A stretch of DNA of 64,000 nt from Arthrobacter saudimassiliensis (GTDB lineage: Bacteria > Actinomycetota > Actinomycetes > Actinomycetales > Micrococcaceae), in contig LN483070.1 in assembly GCA_900016675.1 (NCBI GenBank), positions 248,001-312,000 of the forward strand. Direction: 5' to 3'. This document shows, piece after piece, positions 1,890-10,703 of this stretch. The position numbers and the translations under genes are program-made. The notes under the pieces are model-generated. The model made no database searches. It saw only the letters and a list, made by a program, of their open reading frames with translations, and had not been told where the DNA came from. Positions within the stretch are counted from its first letter, which is position 1; every line of letters begins with the position of its first letter.

Positions 1890-2978
1890 TTAGCTGCTGG
1901 ACTCGATGGCCTTCCTGACCTCGGAGGCTACAGCTTGCCTGCTGCATCTTGCCCAGGGCTGCTGCGCCCTCCGGCCCGATATCACGTGACGAACCTGAAT
2001 CTCGAACGACTCTACGCCCGTCGTATCCACAACTGCGGCGCAGACACTTATTCGAGAATTGCCTCTTATACCCTCAAAACACATCAAGTGGCCTGAATGA
2101 GGCGTGAATCGGTTCCAGATACGTGAGCTAAACGAAAAACGCCCCAGCGCAGCATCCATTTCCGCAGCGCTTGTATAACGCTGGGCCGGGTCGCGATGCA
2201 TGGCCTTTCGAACAATCCTTAGAAGTCCTGCGGGAACGTGGGGCGCTAGAATCTTAAGATTCCTAGGGTCGGTCGTCGCTACAGCCATCATCGTCGCGAG
2301 TGGCCCTCCCTCGGGAGAATAGGGCGGCTCGCCTGCCAACATCCAGAAGAGCGTCGCCCCTAGACTATAAATGTCAGATCGCATGCTGGCAGGGGATGCT
2401 GAAGCCCATGTCGACCTGTCCTCTGTCCCGACAGCAGCAACTTCTGGGGCCATGGTCAAGGGGGTTCCCCCGAATGCAGCCTTTCCCTCGGCATCCATCA
2501 TGGCTGCAAGACCAAAGTCGCCGACGAGCGCATCCAACCTTGCATTCAAGAACAGGTTGTCCGGCTTGAGGTCGTTGTGGACAAGACGCAAGTCATGAAG
2601 GCGTGCCACCCCCCTGCAAGCGTGGCGCCCCCAACGGATTGCCTGTTCTACGGGAACTCCAACGCCGGGTTTTATACGCGTAGCTACAGAACCGCACTCG
2701 GCGACCTCCGTCACGATGTAAGGAACCCCGACCACGTGGCTGGCGTTGCGGACTGGGAGGATATATTCCCCAGCCAGCCCAGCCAAGATATGAGCCTCGC
2801 GCCAGACTTCGTCGTGCTGCACTCTATTGGGGTCGAGAATTTTCAGGGCACTGACCTGGCCGGTATTGTGATCGTTAACCTGATAGACGGCGCCAAACGC
2901 ACCCCTCCCGAGGGAAGATAGGACCTCATACCTATTATCCAGGACGGCCCCTACTGGCAAGGCTGTAATGTCACTCAC
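1890..2978 (-). CDS. eukaryotic-like serine/threonine protein kinase, cytosolic
   Basis: A 362-residue Hanks-type kinase starting at a GTG (2978). Visible kinase motifs are the Gly loop GRGAFGAVY (24-32), the ATP-binding Lys in ALKIL (about 46), the catalytic loop HNDLKPDN (134-141), DFG (154-156) and an APE motif. The catalytic loop has Asn where most kinases have Arg before the catalytic Asp (HRD), so it is a non-RD kinase and probably does not need activation-loop phosphorylation. The kinase domain ends near residue 290. The last 70-75 residues form a separate small domain carrying an SGRR motif. There is no transmembrane helix or PASTA repeat, unlike PknB. It is transcribed divergently from the gene at 3003, with only 24 bases between starts. 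Its substrate is unknown; the two neighbours are the obvious candidates. Confidence 0.85.
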   Translation of the reverse strand: MSDITALPVGAVLDNRYEVLSSLGRGAFGAVYQVNDHNTGQVSALKILDPNRVQHDEVWREAHILAGLAGEYILPVRNASHVVGVPYIVTEVAECGSVATRIKPGVGVPVEQAIRWGRHACRGVARLHDLRLVHNDLKPDNLFLNARLDALVGDFGLAAMMDAEGKAAFGGTPLTMAPEVAAVGTEDRSTWASASPASMRSDIYSLGATLFWMLAGEPPYSPEGGPLATMMAVATTDPRNLKILAPHVPAGLLRIVRKAMHRDPAQRYTSAAEMDAALGRFSFSSRIWNRFTPHSGHLMCFEGIRGNSRISVCAAVVDTTGVESFEIQVRHVISGRRAQQPWARCSRQAVASEVRKAIESSS

Positions 2979-3002
2979 CCATCAAGAGTAAGGTACTAGG
3001 CT

Positions 3003-3482
3003 ATGCGATCGCTCGGTCTCTCTATTGAGGTCACTGCTAAACGACCCACGTTACGGGCTGTCCTCCTAGAAGCCAGCACGGAGGACGGTGCCCCTACCGC
3101 GGGCAGCATCGCGGTGCGGGACGAGTTTGAGGTCCCCAGTTCAAACGAGGACCTCGCTACGCAGCTGAAGGAACTAAGCGATGCGCTCCGTGGGCGCATC
3201 CGGACTCTTGCACCGGATACGGTCGTGATACGTCGAGCCGATCGACCCACACGTCCAAGCAATCAGGAGGGTCCGAGGCTTCGTCTCTTGGCCGAAGGCG
3301 CAGTGATAGCGAGCGCCCGCTCCCTAGTCGAGCAAACCTCCGTCCGTACCGGCAAGGAGTGCGGGGCCGCTTACGGAACCAGCAAGGCCGACTTGGATGC
3401 CGCTGCAGGGACGATAGCCACCACAACGAAGCAGGTTCCAGCCGTAGCTGCCGCACTCAGCGGCCTCTTCCATGACAAATAG
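3003..3482 (+). CDS. hypothetical protein, possible RNase H/RuvC-like fold
   Basis: A 159-residue soluble protein from ATG 3003, with an AAGG-type ribosome binding site about 12 bases upstream. It opens with a beta-strand-like LSIEVTAKRP segment. A second strand-like segment, DTVVIRRADRP, sits mid-protein, followed by a helix rich in Ala (LLAEGAVIASARS). This strand and helix order resembles small RuvC/RNase H-fold proteins, but the usual first acidic residue pattern is not clear, so catalytic activity is doubtful. It is divergent from the kinase at 2978 and 24 bases upstream of the next gene, so it probably forms a unit with both. The family assignment is a weak inference. Confidence 0.55.
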   Translation: MRSLGLSIEVTAKRPTLRAVLLEASTEDGAPTAGSIAVRDEFEVPSSNEDLATQLKELSDALRGRIRTLAPDTVVIRRADRPTRPSNQEGPRLRLLAEGAVIASARSLVEQTSVRTGKECGAAYGTSKADLDAAAGTIATTTKQVPAVAAALSGLFHDK

Positions 3483-3506
3483 CCCGAGTAGAGACATACT
3501 TACGCC

Positions 3507-3968
3507 ATGACCAGGATGGCTGCTGTCCTGCGGGACGTGCAATACGCCCAAGACCGAGCGAGAGAGCTGACGATGGGTCAACTCAACTTTGCTGCGAAAG
3601 TAGTGGACGGCTGGGCTGCGTCAGAAGCACTAGTTCTTCATGCTGTCGACCAAACCGGCGAGAGGATACTGGGAGTAATTCAGTCCACTTCCCCTCTTCA
3701 CGCTCCATTCACCGATACAACCCGCAGGTTCGACGGCCAAAGAATTCTCTTAGTGGTTGGCCCAGTCGCAGGACCTGCTGGACTTTCACAAAGTGCATTC
3801 GTGTGCAGATCCCTTGGCGCTAGCGAGGTGCACGCAGCAATTCTTGAAGGCGACCTACGAGGTTCTTTCGGGTGCGACTCTGTAAGGTACGTTTTCCGAA
3901 AAGCTCCTAATTGCCTGTCACAGTCACCCAGCTTGGAGAGCCATGCAAGCCTCTGCGCCAATTCTTAA
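3507..3968 (+). CDS. phosphoribosyltransferase-like protein with degenerate PRPP loop
   Basis: A 153-residue frame from ATG 3507; an ATG at 3573, preceded by GAGAGAG, is an alternative start. The central segment reads GQRILLVVGPVAGP, then a helix ending in LGASEVHAAIL. This follows the strand / PRPP-loop / helix / strand order of type I phosphoribosyltransferases (normally VLLVDDV-x-TTG followed by LGA). The paired acidic residues of the PRPP-binding motif are replaced by Val-Gly, so it may bind a nucleotide or act as a sensor rather than as an enzyme. It sits 24 bases after the 3003-3482 gene, almost certainly in the same operon. The C-terminus is Ser-rich without a recognisable motif. Confidence 0.55.
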   Translation: MTRMAAVLRDVQYAQDRARELTMGQLNFAAKVVDGWAASEALVLHAVDQTGERILGVIQSTSPLHAPFTDTTRRFDGQRILLVVGPVAGPAGLSQSAFVCRSLGASEVHAAILEGDLRGSFGCDSVRYVFRKAPNCLSQSPSLESHASLCANS

Positions 3969-4463: not shown

Positions 4464-5963
4464 ATGTCCTTCACCGAAAACGCCCTGGCGCACCGGGCGG
4501 AACTGCAGCGCCTGCAGGCCGCGCCAGGCTGGCGGCTCACCTCCGCGAACCCCTGGGTGCTGGCGCTCTTCCGTGAAGCCTTCCCCCGTACCCGGCCCCG
4601 GGTGCCGCTGGAGGACTTCCACGACATGACCGACACGTTCCTCGCCGCCCTGCGCCGCGAAGGCGTCGCCCTGCGCGAGGACTGGACCGGCAAGAACTAC
4701 GCCGACGACTGGGTGGCCCGCCGCTTCCTGGCCCGTCCCCGCGCCGACGGCCGGTTCGTCTACGAACTCACCGAATCCTCCGTCCGCTTCCTCTCCTACC
4801 TCGACGGGTTCACCAGCGACAAGACCTCGCTGAACAGCTCCCGCCTGGCCACCCTGCTCTCCCGGGTCGAGAACCTCGCCCAGGAATCCAACCCGGACCC
4901 TGAAGCGCGCATCGCCGTGCTCCGCGAGGAAATCGCCCGGCGCGAGGAAATGATCGCCGCCCTGGAAGCCGGCGACGCTCCCCCGCCCATGGACGCCGAC
5001 GCCGCGCTCGAAGCCGCCGGCGACATCCTCGACCTCGCCGCCTCCCTGCCCGCCGACTTCAAGCGCATGCGCGACGGCCTGGAGAAAATGCTGCACGCCC
5101 TGCGCCAGGAAATGGTGGAATCCAACGCCGCCAAGGGCCTGACCATGGGTGAAATCCTCGAAGCCGACCGGAAGCTGCGCAGCACCAGCGAGGGCCGCAC
5201 CTACGAGGGCTTCACCGCGTTCCTGAACGACGCCGACCAGCAGGCCCGCTTCCGGCAGGCCATCAGCGAAGTCCTCGAACGCGACTTCGCGGACCGGATG
5301 AGCCCCGAAGACCGGCAGGCCCTCTACCGATTGATCAGCGACATGCGCGCCCAGGCCGCGGAAATCCACCGCATCTACGGCCGGCTCTCCGAATCCATGC
5401 ACACCTACGTGCAGAGCGACGAATACCGCGAATCCGTGCAGCTGCGCCAGCTCATCCGCGCCGCCGAAACCGCCATCCACAAGGCACCGCGCGGCCGCCG
5501 CCGCGCCGCCGTCGTGCCTGCACCGAAGCTGTACGGCTCCGCCTTCGAGTCCCTGGGCATGGTGCGCCTGTTCGACCCGGCCGACCACCGCGCCCCCGGC
5601 CGGCTGCCGGAGCCGCCCAGCTTCACCGAAACCGACATCCACCGCGCCGCCCGCACCCCGCGCGCGGACCGCAAGGTGCTAGGCGCCGCCGTCCGCAAGG
5701 CGGCCGCCCGCCGCGGCCGCGCCACCGTGGCCGAAGTCTTCGCCGAACTACCCGCCGAACACCGGCACCTGAACAGCATCCGCGCCCTGCTCGCCCAGGC
5801 GGCCGCGGCCGGCACCGTTCCCGGCTCCGCGGCCGACGGCGCCCCCGCAGCCTCCGGGGCCGGCGTGCGGTCCGAATCCGTCTCCTTCATCCAGATCGAC
5901 GGCACCGAGCGCACCGCCGTGCTGCCCGCCGTCACCGTCGCGAAAGACCCAGACCATGAGTGA
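4464..5963 (+). CDS. jetA: JetA/MksF, DUF3375 kleisin-like subunit of a Wadjet/MksBEF SMC complex
   Basis: A 499-residue protein of the DUF3375 family. I chose ATG 4464 because a purine-rich GCGGAAAG lies about 8 bases upstream and the family begins just at this point; an in-frame start at 4326 would add an unrelated leader. The first 100 residues carry the conserved winged-helix-like block (LFREAFP, DFHDMTDTFL, DDWVARRFL). A long helical middle follows (about 130-330), then a C-terminal block and a variable tail. In the Jet/Mks systems this kleisin bridges the SMC heads and binds the JetB/MksE dimer. The gene overlaps jetB by 8 bases and heads a three-gene operon. Confidence 0.93.
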   Translation: MSFTENALAHRAELQRLQAAPGWRLTSANPWVLALFREAFPRTRPRVPLEDFHDMTDTFLAALRREGVALREDWTGKNYADDWVARRFLARPRADGRFVYELTESSVRFLSYLDGFTSDKTSLNSSRLATLLSRVENLAQESNPDPEARIAVLREEIARREEMIAALEAGDAPPPMDADAALEAAGDILDLAASLPADFKRMRDGLEKMLHALRQEMVESNAAKGLTMGEILEADRKLRSTSEGRTYEGFTAFLNDADQQARFRQAISEVLERDFADRMSPEDRQALYRLISDMRAQAAEIHRIYGRLSESMHTYVQSDEYRESVQLRQLIRAAETAIHKAPRGRRRAAVVPAPKLYGSAFESLGMVRLFDPADHRAPGRLPEPPSFTETDIHRAARTPRADRKVLGAAVRKAAARRGRATVAEVFAELPAEHRHLNSIRALLAQAAAAGTVPGSAADGAPAASGAGVRSESVSFIQIDGTERTAVLPAVTVAKDPDHE

Positions 5964-6876
5964 GCCCACCCCCGCCCCCACCGCGCAGGACCTGCCCGAC
6001 GACGGCACTGACCTGAACACGGCCCCGGATGGGCCCGCCGTCGAGGTTGAACTCGAGGACGGCACCGACTTCGCCGAGGCCGCCGACACGGACGACGTCG
6101 ACGCCGATGACACGGACTCCGACGCCCCCGCCCCGGCCCGCGACGTCCTCGTGGACGGCCCGGAGCTGTTCCCCGGCGACACCGGCACCCTGCCGCTGAA
6201 GCTGCGCCAGGCCCTGGTCCGGCTGCTGCGCGGCCCCTACCTGGACGCGACCTCCTCCGACAACGTCTACAACACCGTGGTGGACAACCAGGAGCAGCTG
6301 CGCGCCCGGCTCAGCGAACTGTTCCTGCAGCTGGTCATCGACGAGGACCGCAAGGTCGCCCTGCTCCGCCCGGTGGACATGGCCGAGCCGCACACCCAGG
6401 TGCTGCAGCGCCAGCGCGAAATGACCCGCGAGGAAACCCTGCTGCTGCTGCGCATGCGCCTGCTGCTGGACCGCCACGCCGGCACCGGCAACGACGCCGT
6501 GATCGCCCGCCGCGACATGGTCGAAATCCTCGAACAGTACGTGGACCCGGGCCAGCAGGACGCCAAGGGCGTGGAGGACCTCACCGACGCCGCCATCCGC
6601 AAGCTGGCCTCCGAACGCCGCCTGCTGCTGCCCACCGAGCTGGAGGACACCTGGGTGATCTCCCCCGCCCTGCCGCTCGCCCTGCCCTACGAGCACATCG
6701 GAGACATCATCGCCTTCATGCAGTCCCTCACCGAGCCCGACGACGACGGCGCGCCCGCCGCGGCCGACGGCACCGCAGCCGCGGCGCCCGGCCCGGAGAT
6801 GACGGAGCCCGACGCCGCCGGCACCCCGGCGCTGGACCTCACCGAGCTCGATACCGCCGTGGAGGAGCAGGCATGA
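5956..6876 (+). CDS. jetB: JetB/MksE, DUF4194 KITE-like subunit
   Basis: A 306-residue DUF4194 protein starting at ATG 5956, inside the end of jetA, and ending four bases into jetC. The folded part runs from about residue 75 to 260 (LRQALVRLLRGPYL, a MTREETLLLLRMRLLL helix, then a strand-rich end). It is flanked by acidic, low-complexity tails: the first 60 residues are Asp/Glu/Ala-rich and the last 45 are Ala/Asp/Pro-rich. Such tails are longer than the core family needs. In related complexes two copies bind the kleisin and organise the SMC motor. Both start/stop overlaps indicate translational coupling. Confidence 0.92.
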   Translation: MSEPTPAPTAQDLPDDGTDLNTAPDGPAVEVELEDGTDFAEAADTDDVDADDTDSDAPAPARDVLVDGPELFPGDTGTLPLKLRQALVRLLRGPYLDATSSDNVYNTVVDNQEQLRARLSELFLQLVIDEDRKVALLRPVDMAEPHTQVLQRQREMTREETLLLLRMRLLLDRHAGTGNDAVIARRDMVEILEQYVDPGQQDAKGVEDLTDAAIRKLASERRLLLPTELEDTWVISPALPLALPYEHIGDIIAFMQSLTEPDDDGAPAAADGTAAAAPGPEMTEPDAAGTPALDLTELDTAVEEQA

Positions 6877-9800
6877 GCATCGAAACCACCCTGCCCATGG
6901 GGGACCTGATCAACCCCGGCCAGAACCGCCTCGCCTCGGTGCAGATCGTCAACTGGGGCACCTTCGACGGCGCGCACACCATCCACGTGGACCGCGCCGG
7001 CACGCTGCTCACCGGTGACTCCGGCGTCGGCAAGTCCACCGTCTTTGACGCGATCCTGCAGGTCATGGACGCCCGGCCCAAAATGAACGAGGCCGCACAG
7101 AACAACGGCGGCACCACCGCCGAGGAACGCCGCACCGCGTTCAGCTACATGCGCGGCCGGCTGGGCACCCAGCCGACGTCGGCCCCCGCTTCCGCGCCCG
7201 GCAGCGCCGACGCCGCCCCCGGCACGGATCCGGTCACCGGCACCGCCTACCAGCGCCCCGGCGCCACCTGGTCCGCCGCGTGCCTGACCTTCGACAACGG
7301 CCTAGGCCAGGTCACCAGCCTCTCCGTGCTGATGGACCTGCCCGAGCACGGCACCGAACAGCACGTGGGCCGGTTTTACCTGCTGCACAACCGCCCGCTG
7401 GACGTCGCCGCCATCGAGACCGGCATGCGCGGACGGTTCACCAAGGGCAGCCTGGAGGCGCTGCTGCCCGGCGCGCAGGTCTTCGACTCGCACAAGCTGT
7501 TCGCCGAGCGCTACCGGCACGCCCTGGGCGTGGAGGACGAGAAGGCGTTCAACCTGCTGCGCATCCTGCAGACCGGCCGCGGTCTGGGCGGCACCGTCAA
7601 CGACTTCTTCCGCGCCAACGTGCTGGAAACCCCCAAGACCCTCACTGCCGCCGAGGAGGCGGTGGAGGACTTCAGCCACCTGCGCAGCATCCGCCGCCAG
7701 CTCGAACGTGCCCGCCGGCAGCGCGACCACCTCGCCGAGGTCCCCGGCCTGCACGCCCGCTACCTCACCGCCCGCGCCGAGCTGGAACGCTCCCGCGCCC
7801 TGCTGGACCGCGGCCTGCCCGCCTACCGCCGCAGCCTCGCCCTCGCTGGACAGGAACGCGAGGTCGCCCGGCTCACCGCTGAGACCGACGCCGCCCGCAC
7901 CGCCCTGGCCGACGCCGAAACCCGCCGCGGCGAACTCAAGGACGCCATGGACGCGCTCCGCGCCCGCTACGCCTCCGAGGGCGGCGGCGCCGTCGCCACC
8001 CTGGAACGCGAACTGGCCGCCGCGCAGGCCCAGCTGGCCGCCCGCGAAGCGGTGGAGACCGCCGCCCGTGCAGACCTGGACGCCGCCGGGCTGGACGCCG
8101 ACTTCTCCCCCGCCGGCCTTCAGACCGCCCGACGCCGGGCCGCCGACCAGGTGCGCTCCCTCGCCGCCGAGCTGGCCGCCGCCCGCGAGCGCAGCAGCGA
8201 CGCGCACGGCGAGGCGTGGGCCGCCAAGGGCCGGATCCGCCGGCTCGAGGAGGAGATCGCGTCCTTCCGCCGCCGGCGCAGCAACATCCGCCAGGACAGC
8301 CTGGACCTGCGCGCCCGGATCAGCGCCGGCACCGGCATCCCGGCCGAGGAGATGCCCTTCGCGGGCGAGCTGATCGACCTGGCCCCGGAACACGCCGCCT
8401 GGCGCCCGGCCGCCGAACGCGCCCTGCGCTCCCTGGCCGTGTCCCTGCTGGTGCCCGGCGAGCACATGGCCGCCGTCACGAAGTTCCTGAGCGAGACTAA
8501 CCTGCGCGGCTTCATCCGCTGCATCGACGTCTCCGTCCCCGTGGACGGGCGCACCGATCCGGACGAGGACCACCTGGTCACCAAGCTGCTCACCGCCCCC
8601 GGGGCCATGGGCGACTGGGTACGCCGCAAGATCACCGCCCACTACGACTACGTGTGCGTCGCCGATCCGGCCGGGCTGGCCGACGTCGACCGCGGCGTCA
8701 CCCGCGGCGGCGCGGTCAAGCGCAACGCCAGCACCACCGAGAAGGACGACCGGCACACCGATCCCGGCGACCAGGTGCTCGGCTTCGACAACAAGGACAA
8801 GGTCGCCGCCCTGGAGGCCGAGCTCGAGGCGCTGCAGCGCTCCTTCGAGGAGGCGGACACGGTCTCCCGCGAGCAGGCCCGCGCCCAGGACGCCGTCGCC
8901 GCCCGGCTGGCCGCCGCGTCCCGGGTCGCCGAGGACGCCCGCACCTGGGAGGAACTCTCCGCGGACGCGTTCCGCGCCGAGCTGGCCGCCGCCGCGGAGC
9001 GGCTGGACACCGCCCGGGACGCGAACGCGGACCTGGAGCAGATCCGCTTCGAGCTGGAGACCGCGGAGCTGGACCACACCGCCGCCGTCGAGAAGGTCGG
9101 CACGCTCAAGGGCGAGCTGGCCCGCCTGCAGGCCCAGCTGGACGCCGCCGTCGGCCGTCGCGACGTGTTCGCCGCCCGCGGCACCGAGGCCCTGGACGAG
9201 GAGCTGCGCGCCGCGCTGGAGGAGCTGTTCGCCCCCTACGGGGAGGCCCGCGACGCCGACGCCGTCACCGCGGCCGCGGCCGCCGTCGAACGTAAGCTGC
9301 TCACCGGCGCCGCCGCGCAGGAGAAGGCGCTGCTGGAATCGAAGAACCGGCTGGAGCGGATCTTCGAGACCTACACCGAGAAGTGGGGCTCGGACTTCGG
9401 CACCTCGGTGGACGCCGCCGAGGCGTACGCGGACCGGTACGAGGACATCGTCACCGAGGGCCTGCCGCAGCGCGAGGCCGAGTTCCGCGAGTACTTCAAC
9501 AACCGCACCTACGAACGCTTCAGCGACCTGCTGCAGCTGCTGGACGAGGAGCGGCGCAGCATCTCCTCGCGGCTGCTGCCGCTGAACTCGGTGCTGCGCC
9601 GGGTGGAGTACCACGCCGGCAGCCACCTGGAGATCGAGGTGAAGGACAGCATTCCGGACGCCGCGCACAAGTTCCGGCAGGACCTGAAGAACGCGCTGCC
9701 GCTGATGGGCCGCCGGCAGGACAAGGCGGACATGGACGCCCGGTACGCCGGCCTGGAGGCGCTGGTGGAGCGGCTGAAGGACCCCGAGGAGAAGCGCTGG

Positions 9801-10229
9801 CGCGCCGAGGTGCTGGACGTGCGCGCGCACGTCACCATCACCTGCACGCACCGGCTGCCCGACGGCGGGGCGTACACCAACCTGCAGGCCTCCCTGATGT
9901 CCGGCGGCGAGGGCCAGCGGTTCACCGCGTTCATCATGGCCTCGGCGCTGGCCTACCAGCTGGGCATCGTGTCCCAGGGGTTCAGCACCTACGGCACGGT
10001 GATGATGGACGAGGCGTTCGTGAAGTCCTCGCTTTCCTTCGCCGAGGCGTCGATCAACGCGCTGCATGAGTTCGGGTTCCAGCTGCTGCTGGCCGCCCCG
10101 GAGGACAAGGTGGACCTGTCCCGGTTCCTGGGCTCGGTCACCGAGATCCTGCGCGACGACGCGACCAACCGCTCCGGCGCGCTGCAGCGGTCCGGCGGTT
10201 CGGTGCCGGTAAATATCCTGCTCCGCTGA
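6873..10229 (+). CDS. jetC: JetC/MksB, SMC-like ATPase
   Basis: A 1118-residue SMC-type ATPase. The N-terminal head has Walker A GDSGVGKST at 48-56. The C-terminal head has the ABC signature LMSGGEGQR (about 1007) and Walker B VMMDEAF (about 1042). Between them lie two long coiled-coil arms rich in Ala, Arg and Glu, with a hinge-like globular block near residues 490-640. A Ser/Pro/Ala insertion sits at about 98-118 in the head. The protein is expected to extrude DNA loops as a dimer with JetA and JetB. It starts in an ATGA overlap with jetB. In full Wadjet operons jetD follows; here the next gene is an unrelated small membrane protein. Confidence 0.93.
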   Translation: MSIETTLPMGDLINPGQNRLASVQIVNWGTFDGAHTIHVDRAGTLLTGDSGVGKSTVFDAILQVMDARPKMNEAAQNNGGTTAEERRTAFSYMRGRLGTQPTSAPASAPGSADAAPGTDPVTGTAYQRPGATWSAACLTFDNGLGQVTSLSVLMDLPEHGTEQHVGRFYLLHNRPLDVAAIETGMRGRFTKGSLEALLPGAQVFDSHKLFAERYRHALGVEDEKAFNLLRILQTGRGLGGTVNDFFRANVLETPKTLTAAEEAVEDFSHLRSIRRQLERARRQRDHLAEVPGLHARYLTARAELERSRALLDRGLPAYRRSLALAGQEREVARLTAETDAARTALADAETRRGELKDAMDALRARYASEGGGAVATLERELAAAQAQLAAREAVETAARADLDAAGLDADFSPAGLQTARRRAADQVRSLAAELAAARERSSDAHGEAWAAKGRIRRLEEEIASFRRRRSNIRQDSLDLRARISAGTGIPAEEMPFAGELIDLAPEHAAWRPAAERALRSLAVSLLVPGEHMAAVTKFLSETNLRGFIRCIDVSVPVDGRTDPDEDHLVTKLLTAPGAMGDWVRRKITAHYDYVCVADPAGLADVDRGVTRGGAVKRNASTTEKDDRHTDPGDQVLGFDNKDKVAALEAELEALQRSFEEADTVSREQARAQDAVAARLAAASRVAEDARTWEELSADAFRAELAAAAERLDTARDANADLEQIRFELETAELDHTAAVEKVGTLKGELARLQAQLDAAVGRRDVFAARGTEALDEELRAALEELFAPYGEARDADAVTAAAAAVERKLLTGAAAQEKALLESKNRLERIFETYTEKWGSDFGTSVDAAEAYADRYEDIVTEGLPQREAEFREYFNNRTYERFSDLLQLLDEERRSISSRLLPLNSVLRRVEYHAGSHLEIEVKDSIPDAAHKFRQDLKNALPLMGRRQDKADMDARYAGLEALVERLKDPEEKRWRAEVLDVRAHVTITCTHRLPDGGAYTNLQASLMSGGEGQRFTAFIMASALAYQLGIVSQGFSTYGTVMMDEAFVKSSLSFAEASINALHEFGFQLLLAAPEDKVDLSRFLGSVTEILRDDATNRSGALQRSGGSVPVNILLR

Positions 10230-10322
10230 GGGGTTTGCTGCACGTTTTCGCGTAGTTACCGGCCGGTTTCGAGCATTCCGAGGCGGCGTGTTGGCCCGGG
10301 TCCGTTGCTAGGGTCCGGGCCT

Positions 10323-10703
10323 ATGGAAACCGCGAACCGCTGCCCGCGCCGCGTCGTCGGCGCCTGGACGGTCGGCGCCCTGGGCCTGCTTTGCCTGCTG
10401 GTGGTCTTCGGCGTCCACTCGCCGCTCGCGCCGCAGAGTCGGGCGGTGGCCGGCGCCGCCGCCGTCGGCCCCTCCGCCGTCGGCTCCGCCTATCTGCTCA
10501 ACGGGCAGCTGCTGGGCCGCCGGCTGCCGGCCGGCACCGCATGGGGCGCAGCGGCCGCCCTGACCGTCTGGGCGGCCGCGCTGGGTCGGCTGGTCCTGTG
10601 GGAGGACCCGGCGAACCAGCTGCCGCTGGCGTTCCTTCCGCTGCTGCCCGCCGTGTGGGTGATCGCCGCCTGCCAGCCGCAGAGCCGCCCGCCGGGCCGC
10701 TGA
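10323..10703 (+). CDS. small integral membrane protein, unknown function
   Basis: ATG 10323 gives 126 residues. A TTG six codons earlier is less likely. Four hydrophobic segments are visible: residues 17-36, 42-60, 70-92 and 98-115. The remainder is short loops, with no conserved polar residues that would suggest a transporter or enzyme. It follows jetC by about 90 bases and precedes the MpaB-like gene by about 70. It is not a JetD protein: length, hydrophobicity and the absence of a Toprim motif all exclude that. Confidence 0.6.
   Translation: METANRCPRRVVGAWTVGALGLLCLLVVFGVHSPLAPQSRAVAGAAAVGPSAVGSAYLLNGQLLGRRLPAGTAWGAAAALTVWAAALGRLVLWEDPANQLPLAFLPLLPAVWVIAACQPQSRPPGR

Follow-up and report, generated by a model that had tools for sequence, protein, structure and literature searches.

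The 64-kb stretch of Arthrobacter saudimassiliensis DNA analysed here (contig LN483070.1, positions 248,001 to 312,000, hereafter the window) carries jetABC, the operon of a structural maintenance of chromosomes (SMC) complex of the Wadjet type I group, also named mksFEB, from which the nuclease gene jetD (mksG) is missing. The explanation preferred here, to which a probability of roughly 0.6 is given, is that the operon encodes a complete JetABC (MksFEB) complex, that an ancestor common to several Micrococcaceae genera lost JetD, and that the cell has since retained JetABC as a second SMC complex, additional to Smc-ScpAB. A genus keeping the motor in all 29 sampled genomes and a detectable cutter in none, amid family operons that have both, represents a natural experiment. 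Three-gene JetABC matches that defence-annotation tools call "Wadjet" may not be plasmid defence, and the motor is likely to serve a lasting function in its own right, which may be to organise the chromosome of the bacterium.

An intact jetABC operon without detectable JetD

The three genes lie on the forward strand: jetA (4464..5963, 499 amino acids) for an mksF-like kleisin, jetB (5956..6876, 306 amino acids) for an mksE-like KITE protein with an acidic N-terminal tail, and jetC (6873..10229, 1118 amino acids) for an mksB-like SMC ATPase, with overlaps of 8 bases between jetA and jetB and 4 bases between jetB and jetC. This arrangement, together with the full set of SMC motifs, had been reported in a preliminary description of the window and is borne out by the sequence. 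JetA matches PF11855 (DUF3375) at 321 bits, against a Pfam cut-off of 28.6, and the PADLOC model JetA1 (E 4.8e-224), and its nearest solved sequence is the JetA chain of Protein Data Bank (PDB) entry 8dk1 (E 1.6e-22). JetB matches PF13835 (DUF4194) at 106 bits (cut-off 32.7), PF21980 (MksE) at 31 bits and PADLOC JetB1 (E 8.4e-80), the nearest solved sequences being the JetB chains of 9qxt and 8as8 (E 4.3e-6). JetC matches PADLOC JetC1 (E 0), scores above the Pfam cut-off for AAA_29 and SbcC_Walker_B, and is closest to the JetC chains of 8dk2 (E 1.4e-66) and 8as8 (E 1.8e-62).

Regarding the ATPase motifs of JetC, all are undamaged in the alignment: the Walker A GDSGVGKS (GDSGVGKST at 7014..7040), which is found in every JetC row of the printed alignment, the ABC signature LMSGGEGQR (9894..9920) and the Walker B VMMDEAF (9999..10019). 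The canonical Smc model TIGR02168 (SMC_prok_B) gives JetC 26.8 bits, far under its cut-off of 567.35, and the MukB model gives 17 bits, likewise under its cut-off. An uninformative scan for promoters and terminators returned no promoter-like site and four terminator-like sites, compared to 3.0 expected.

The operon thus shares with the type I Wadjet JetABCD (MksFEBG) the JetA of DUF3375, the JetB of DUF4194, the SMC ATPase JetC with its three motifs, the gene order and the PADLOC type I matches, whereas the JetD Toprim nuclease (DUF3322 plus JetD_C) is missing from the operon, the genome and the genus sample. SMC, kleisin and KITE genes sharing one operon without MksG is also the composition of MksBEF-type systems. 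Judged from their sequences, the genes in the window are intact type I Wadjet/MksFEB genes.

The search for JetD covered the whole source genome (3.55 Mb, 99% complete). No match was returned there by JetD_C (PF09983) or DUF3322 (PF11795), models that both match the control genome of Corynebacterium glutamicum, nor, at E of 10 or below, by a model derived from 15 JetD proteins. With filters off, a JetD profile run on 1,107 reading frames of the window (at least 20 amino acids) reached only E 0.62 and 0.85 at best, and a tblastn search using 31 JetD sequences, among them a piece of only 51 residues (L104), found nothing at E 0.01 in the window or in 64 loci without JetD. In all 31 loci with JetD, its reading frame overlaps the end of jetC; at the corresponding site of the window (10230..10304, forward strand), neither jetD nor a remnant of it is present. 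The preliminary description had noted no JetD beside jetC or in the window and had proposed a genome search for a DUF3322/DUF2220 Toprim protein: its observation holds, the proposed search is blank with all three models, and no remnant, nor a jetD just outside the window, appeared among the window frames, by tblastn or across the genome. So far as sequence searches reach, JetD is absent from the operon and from the source genome.

The same absence extends to the genus, where JetD_C matches none of the 29 genomes at E 0.001, and the 15-sequence model, relaxed to E 10, yields only noise in 17 of them (E 0.06 at best, over no more than 74 of 382 positions). A very divergent, unrecognisable JetD encoded somewhere in the genome is nevertheless conceivable, as distant members can escape Pfam models and JetD sequences vary widely among themselves (25-41% identity when compared with row one of the 15-sequence alignment). 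Against this stand the blank results of the two Pfam models and of the 15-sequence model in the source genome, and of the 31-sequence tblastn in the window and the 64 loci; moreover, were a JetD concealed at its usual place in the operon, a conserved gene next to jetC would be expected, and none was seen, which makes this explanation very improbable.

Distribution and phylogeny of the JetD-free operon

Named relatives place the source genome in the Arthrobacter citreus/luteolus/gandavensis/koreensis group (15 loci, JetA identity of 78-79% over the best segment). JetA was found in all 29 genomes of the genus, and so was ScpA, the source genome included, which indicates that the JetABC complex is additional to Smc-ScpAB, among whose parts ScpA alone was searched. 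In 13 of the 29 genomes, again including the source, the distance between JetA and the start of the contig labelled C1 is 221-256 kb. About 5 kb upstream of jetA, a gene at 245646-247364 of the source contig, read by us as a probable thiamine-diphosphate enzyme of the PoxB type, is matched at 94% identity ahead of jetA in three of ten loci (L024, L025 and L055), and two others (L021 and L035) match further genes of this upstream region. The remaining five have no such matches, two of them offering just 4-6 kb of upstream sequence. The occurrence of upstream matches in some loci only suggests that the place of jetA is partly common in the genus, with turnover.

The family sample comprises 245 genomes of 32 genera, with JetA in 141 genomes (22 genera) and JetD in 61. 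When JetA is divided into high- and low-scoring classes, a division set by E-value only (limit 1e-112) and with tree placement for the fetched loci only, JetD is found in 53 of the 54 genomes with high-scoring JetA, all but G161, whose locus (L054) falls outside the clade of the window. Among the 87 genomes with low-scoring JetA only, five have a JetD match (G088, G136, G188, G227 and G240), all partial or below the scores of operon JetD. Solo short JetD frames are found in G240, G188 and G032, with 321, 251 and 145 amino acids compared to about 380 in the model (L132, 10040-11002, forward; L133, 9593-10345, forward; L134, 7410-7844, reverse); none of the fetched stretches contains JetABC, and G032 has JetD and no JetA at all. 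These frames are either relics of lost Wadjets or stand-alone genes. In the class sample (345 genomes), JetA is matched in 62 genomes and JetD in 35, with both in 27 and JetA without JetD in 35. As many as 28 of the latter have an unbroken, strong JetA, a count that leaves out G315, whose JetA is in two frames on one search and intact on another (29 with it).

Phylogenetic analysis was based on quick, unrooted trees with support from the Shimodaira-Hasegawa-like approximate likelihood-ratio test only. The JetA tree holds 80 of 96 loci, after 16 near-copies were dropped, and includes L115, a locus with JetA and no detectable JetC. The JetC tree has 69 rows, including four plasmid-borne Pseudomonadota copies annotated with JetD or a DUF3322 gene after jetC; 29 loci were thinned from it, and L056 and L092 (split JetC), L115 and L119 (fragmented) were left out. 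The label used on both trees refers to JetD in the operon, and L050, L093, L094, L100, L101 and L108, for example, come from genomes with JetD elsewhere. In the JetA tree, the window falls among 22 rows, all without operon JetD, that form a clade spanning ten genera of Micrococcaceae (support 100), and the same clade is recovered in the JetC tree with 19 rows (support 100), where the next supported node (98) gathers 30 rows without and four with JetD. The JetD-bearing operons of the family are placed elsewhere in both trees. Of 18 low-scoring loci fetched from other Micrococcaceae genera (L036-L053), 17 are in the window clade and one, L042, is outside. The comparison with relatives that the preliminary description had called for thus returned JetA in 29 and JetD in none of the genus genomes, within a clade of ten genera lacking operon JetD.

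The operon-JetD label changes seven times on each tree, with at least six changes forced by well-supported branches, compared to about 23-25 for shuffled labels. In addition, the divergence of JetD follows that of its partners over 33 JetD-bearing loci (Mantel r of 0.89 for JetD-JetC, 0.85 for JetA-JetC and 0.79 for JetA-JetD, each with p 0.001). Given this parallel divergence of JetD and JetC, an old loss is the best interpretation where JetD is absent. The most fitting view of JetD is accordingly that of an original component lost several times, not a recent add-on, a polarity that we infer from unrooted trees.

The operon could instead be a decaying Wadjet remnant after a recent loss of jetD, an idea that draws on the missing JetD itself, on degraded pieces elsewhere in the family, such as the three solo JetD frames, and on JetC being split over two frames in L056, a JetD-bearing operon, and, outside the family, in L092, which lacks JetD. 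Such decay is hardly credible given the full-length frames, the undamaged ATPase motifs, the presence of JetA in every genus genome and the spread of the clade over ten genera. Moreover, the ratio of nonsynonymous to synonymous substitution rates (dN/dS) is low in seven close pairs without JetD: jetA and jetC have values of about 0.05-0.15 and jetB of about 0.06-0.40, which resembles three JetD-bearing pairs (0.09-0.21).

Possible function of the nuclease-free complex

As homology to JetABC and knowledge of relatives suggest, the complex would be loaded onto DNA in the form of a dimer of SMC dimers and would use ATP for loop extrusion. In the absence of JetD, finishing or stalling a loop would not set off cleavage, so that the action of JetABC would be structural, by folding, tethering or aiding the segregation of the host chromosome or of large replicons. 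We infer all three elements of this proposal, namely loss as opposed to primitive absence, loop extrusion and a chromosomal substrate. The best reading of the analysis is an action on the cell's own DNA like that of MksBEF from Pseudomonas aeruginosa, which is viewed as JetABCD minus JetD and organises the chromosome (PMC10586767). The likeness, drawn from its description, concerns a three-gene SMC complex in a cell that also has Smc-ScpAB; the genes of the window differ in matching the type I DUF3375 and DUF4194 families, and their chromosomal role would be by analogy.

The preliminary description had weighed three options. An MksBEF without a defence role is the best fit, as seen by JetA in 29 of 29 and JetD in 0 of 29 genus genomes and by the purely JetD-free clade, its function being the conjectural part. 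A nuclease supplied in trans finds no support, as there is no JetD anywhere in the genus, and only an unrelated nuclease could take that part. The replacement of part of the locus by the 5' island is equally unsupported: the 15 named relatives without the island genes also lack JetD, no jetD remnant is present, and the island lies upstream of jetA, away from the position of jetD.

The main rival is a defence that is independent of JetD, in which the complex would still act against plasmids or phages, either by sequestering, silencing or mis-segregating small circles without cutting them or by means of an unrelated, unlinked nuclease or topoisomerase. It is favoured by the role of JetABC as the DNA-shape sensor of Wadjet (PMC10586767), by a Ser/Thr kinase with mad6-/PD-T4-6-like matches 1.5 kb upstream of jetABC, though this kinase was not found in the 15 named-genus loci, and by the full Wadjet that some clade members' genomes also carry. 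However, no genus genome has JetD, no conserved neighbour was found, and jetA is in all 29 genomes, unlike a patchy defence gene; in Bacillus subtilis, plasmid suppression needed all four subunits (PMC10586767). Taken together, a role in defence appears rather unlikely.

Several observations weigh against a retained chromosomal complex. The MksBEFG of C. glutamicum reportedly acts on non-chromosomal DNA alone, with no chromosomal role (PMC7083940), a precedent for JetABC-type motors that need not act on chromosomes. The JetABC of several clade members is not wholly without JetD in the cell, as their genomes also hold a full Wadjet, and one member (L117, 2831-8303 of NZ_CP012477.1) is carried by a plasmid of Arthrobacter sp. 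ERGS1:01 that measures 754 kb. When the window is compared with three relatives, raw dN/dS is higher (0.29-0.54), with dS unreliable at a third-position GC content of 0.91-0.96. Finally, neighbourhoods vary between genera, and genes of the source genome's upstream region stand beside jetA in only five of the ten genus loci tested.

Nuclease-less operons of the Wadjet group are already a published category: MksG/JetD is described as lacking from the MukBEF of E. coli as well as from "several other Wadjet group members", and MksG is treated as optional in a genome-scale survey (PMC7617805). MukBEF is a similarly nuclease-less member, but a distant relative, given the MukB score mentioned above. 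Wadjet has been reported in 42% of actinobacterial genomes (PMC10482375), and in Table 6 of a study on Paenarthrobacter lasiusi, a row with JetA, JetB and JetC and without JetD stands beside a full type I Wadjet (PMC11719660). That row, likened to the window operon by its table listing alone, is annotated as plain "Wadjet", and the missing JetD is not discussed in the passages covered. In the titles, abstract openings and passages covered by the literature search, no description of this Micrococcaceae clade or of its genus-wide presence was found. What the present data add is a natural series of nuclease losses. Tentatively, and with less confidence than in the retained JetABC complex itself, it can be proposed that Wadjet systems repeatedly became nuclease-free motors kept by the host, operon JetD having changed at least six times among the sampled Actinomycetes, and that one old loss in Micrococcaceae, universal in the sampled genus of the window, gave a second condensin that would act on the chromosome by loop extrusion alone.

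Clade-specific residues and neighbouring genes

The D-loop aspartate, six residues after the Walker B glutamate (JetC residue 1053, window 10029-10031), is replaced by serine (22) or asparagine (13) in all 35 JetCs of the clade, compared to the remaining 58 actinomycete rows, where it is in place (46) or one position later (12). In the alignment, the solved JetC chain of 8dk1, presumably the Wadjet of P. aeruginosa PA14, also has serine here. A link of this change to the nuclease was rejected, as 8dk1 shares it and all 28 other JetD-free rows retain the aspartate. Cohesin D-loop mutants were considered as a model for a slowed ATPase (PMC4709263, PMC4769319). The clade also departs from otherwise conserved residues at JetC 67, 127, 610 and 1017 and at JetA 52 and 325. 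No segment of at least three columns in JetA, JetB or JetC is present in more than 80% of JetD-bearing rows and missing in more than 80% of the clade.

Regarding JetB, its IFDR motif has been reported as a contact of JetD (PMC10586767). It was rejected as a marker of JetD dependence, being present in none of 95 JetBs, with or without JetD. The acidic tail, which had been called unusual, is ordinary: over residues 2-41, the JetB of the window has an Asp plus Glu fraction of 0.30, within the range of the 35 clade JetBs (0.12-0.38, mean 0.25), compared to 0.27 in 29 other JetBs without JetD and 0.18 (up to 0.40) in 31 with it.

The open reading frame after jetC (10305-10703) encodes 132 amino acids from TTG, or 126 from the ATG at 10323. 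Searches against Pfam, NCBIfam and PADLOC at E 0.01 left it unmatched, and tblastn at E 1e-4 did not detect it in any of the 15 named-genus loci. Across the 35 clade loci of ten genera, no neighbouring gene of at least 100 amino acids, a limit that shorter genes would escape, occurs in more than four genera, and three clusters reach four genera at varying places. The other JetD-free groups have no general partner of at least 70 amino acids either (three sets, including a few JetD-bearing loci). A replacement partner for JetD was therefore rejected, none being conserved beside jetABC in the window clade or in the other groups.

Upstream of the operon, the Ser/Thr kinase (PADLOC mad6-/PD-T4-6-like) and two small genes that match no family form a divergent arrangement (1890-3968), and a nearby open reading frame (1160-1777) is read from its sequence as a putative insertion sequence integrase. 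As tblastn detects neither the kinase nor the small genes in any of the 15 named-genus loci, the 5' island appears to have been inserted locally next to the operon.

In two genus members, a partial near-copy of the jetA N-terminus lies about 3.2-3.5 kb upstream of the intact gene, at 5187-5504 of L055 (G026) and 2496-2798 of L075 (G015), in reverse-strand coordinates. This second JetA-like match in both genomes is thus a near-copy of their own jetA and not a nuclease. Moreover, the plasmid-borne JetABC of L117 adjoins a RecB-nuclease/helicase gene, and an unannotated 54-kb "Bacteriophage sp." record (MT835499.1, 25742-28975) encodes a JetC-like protein with 32.6% identity over 65% coverage.

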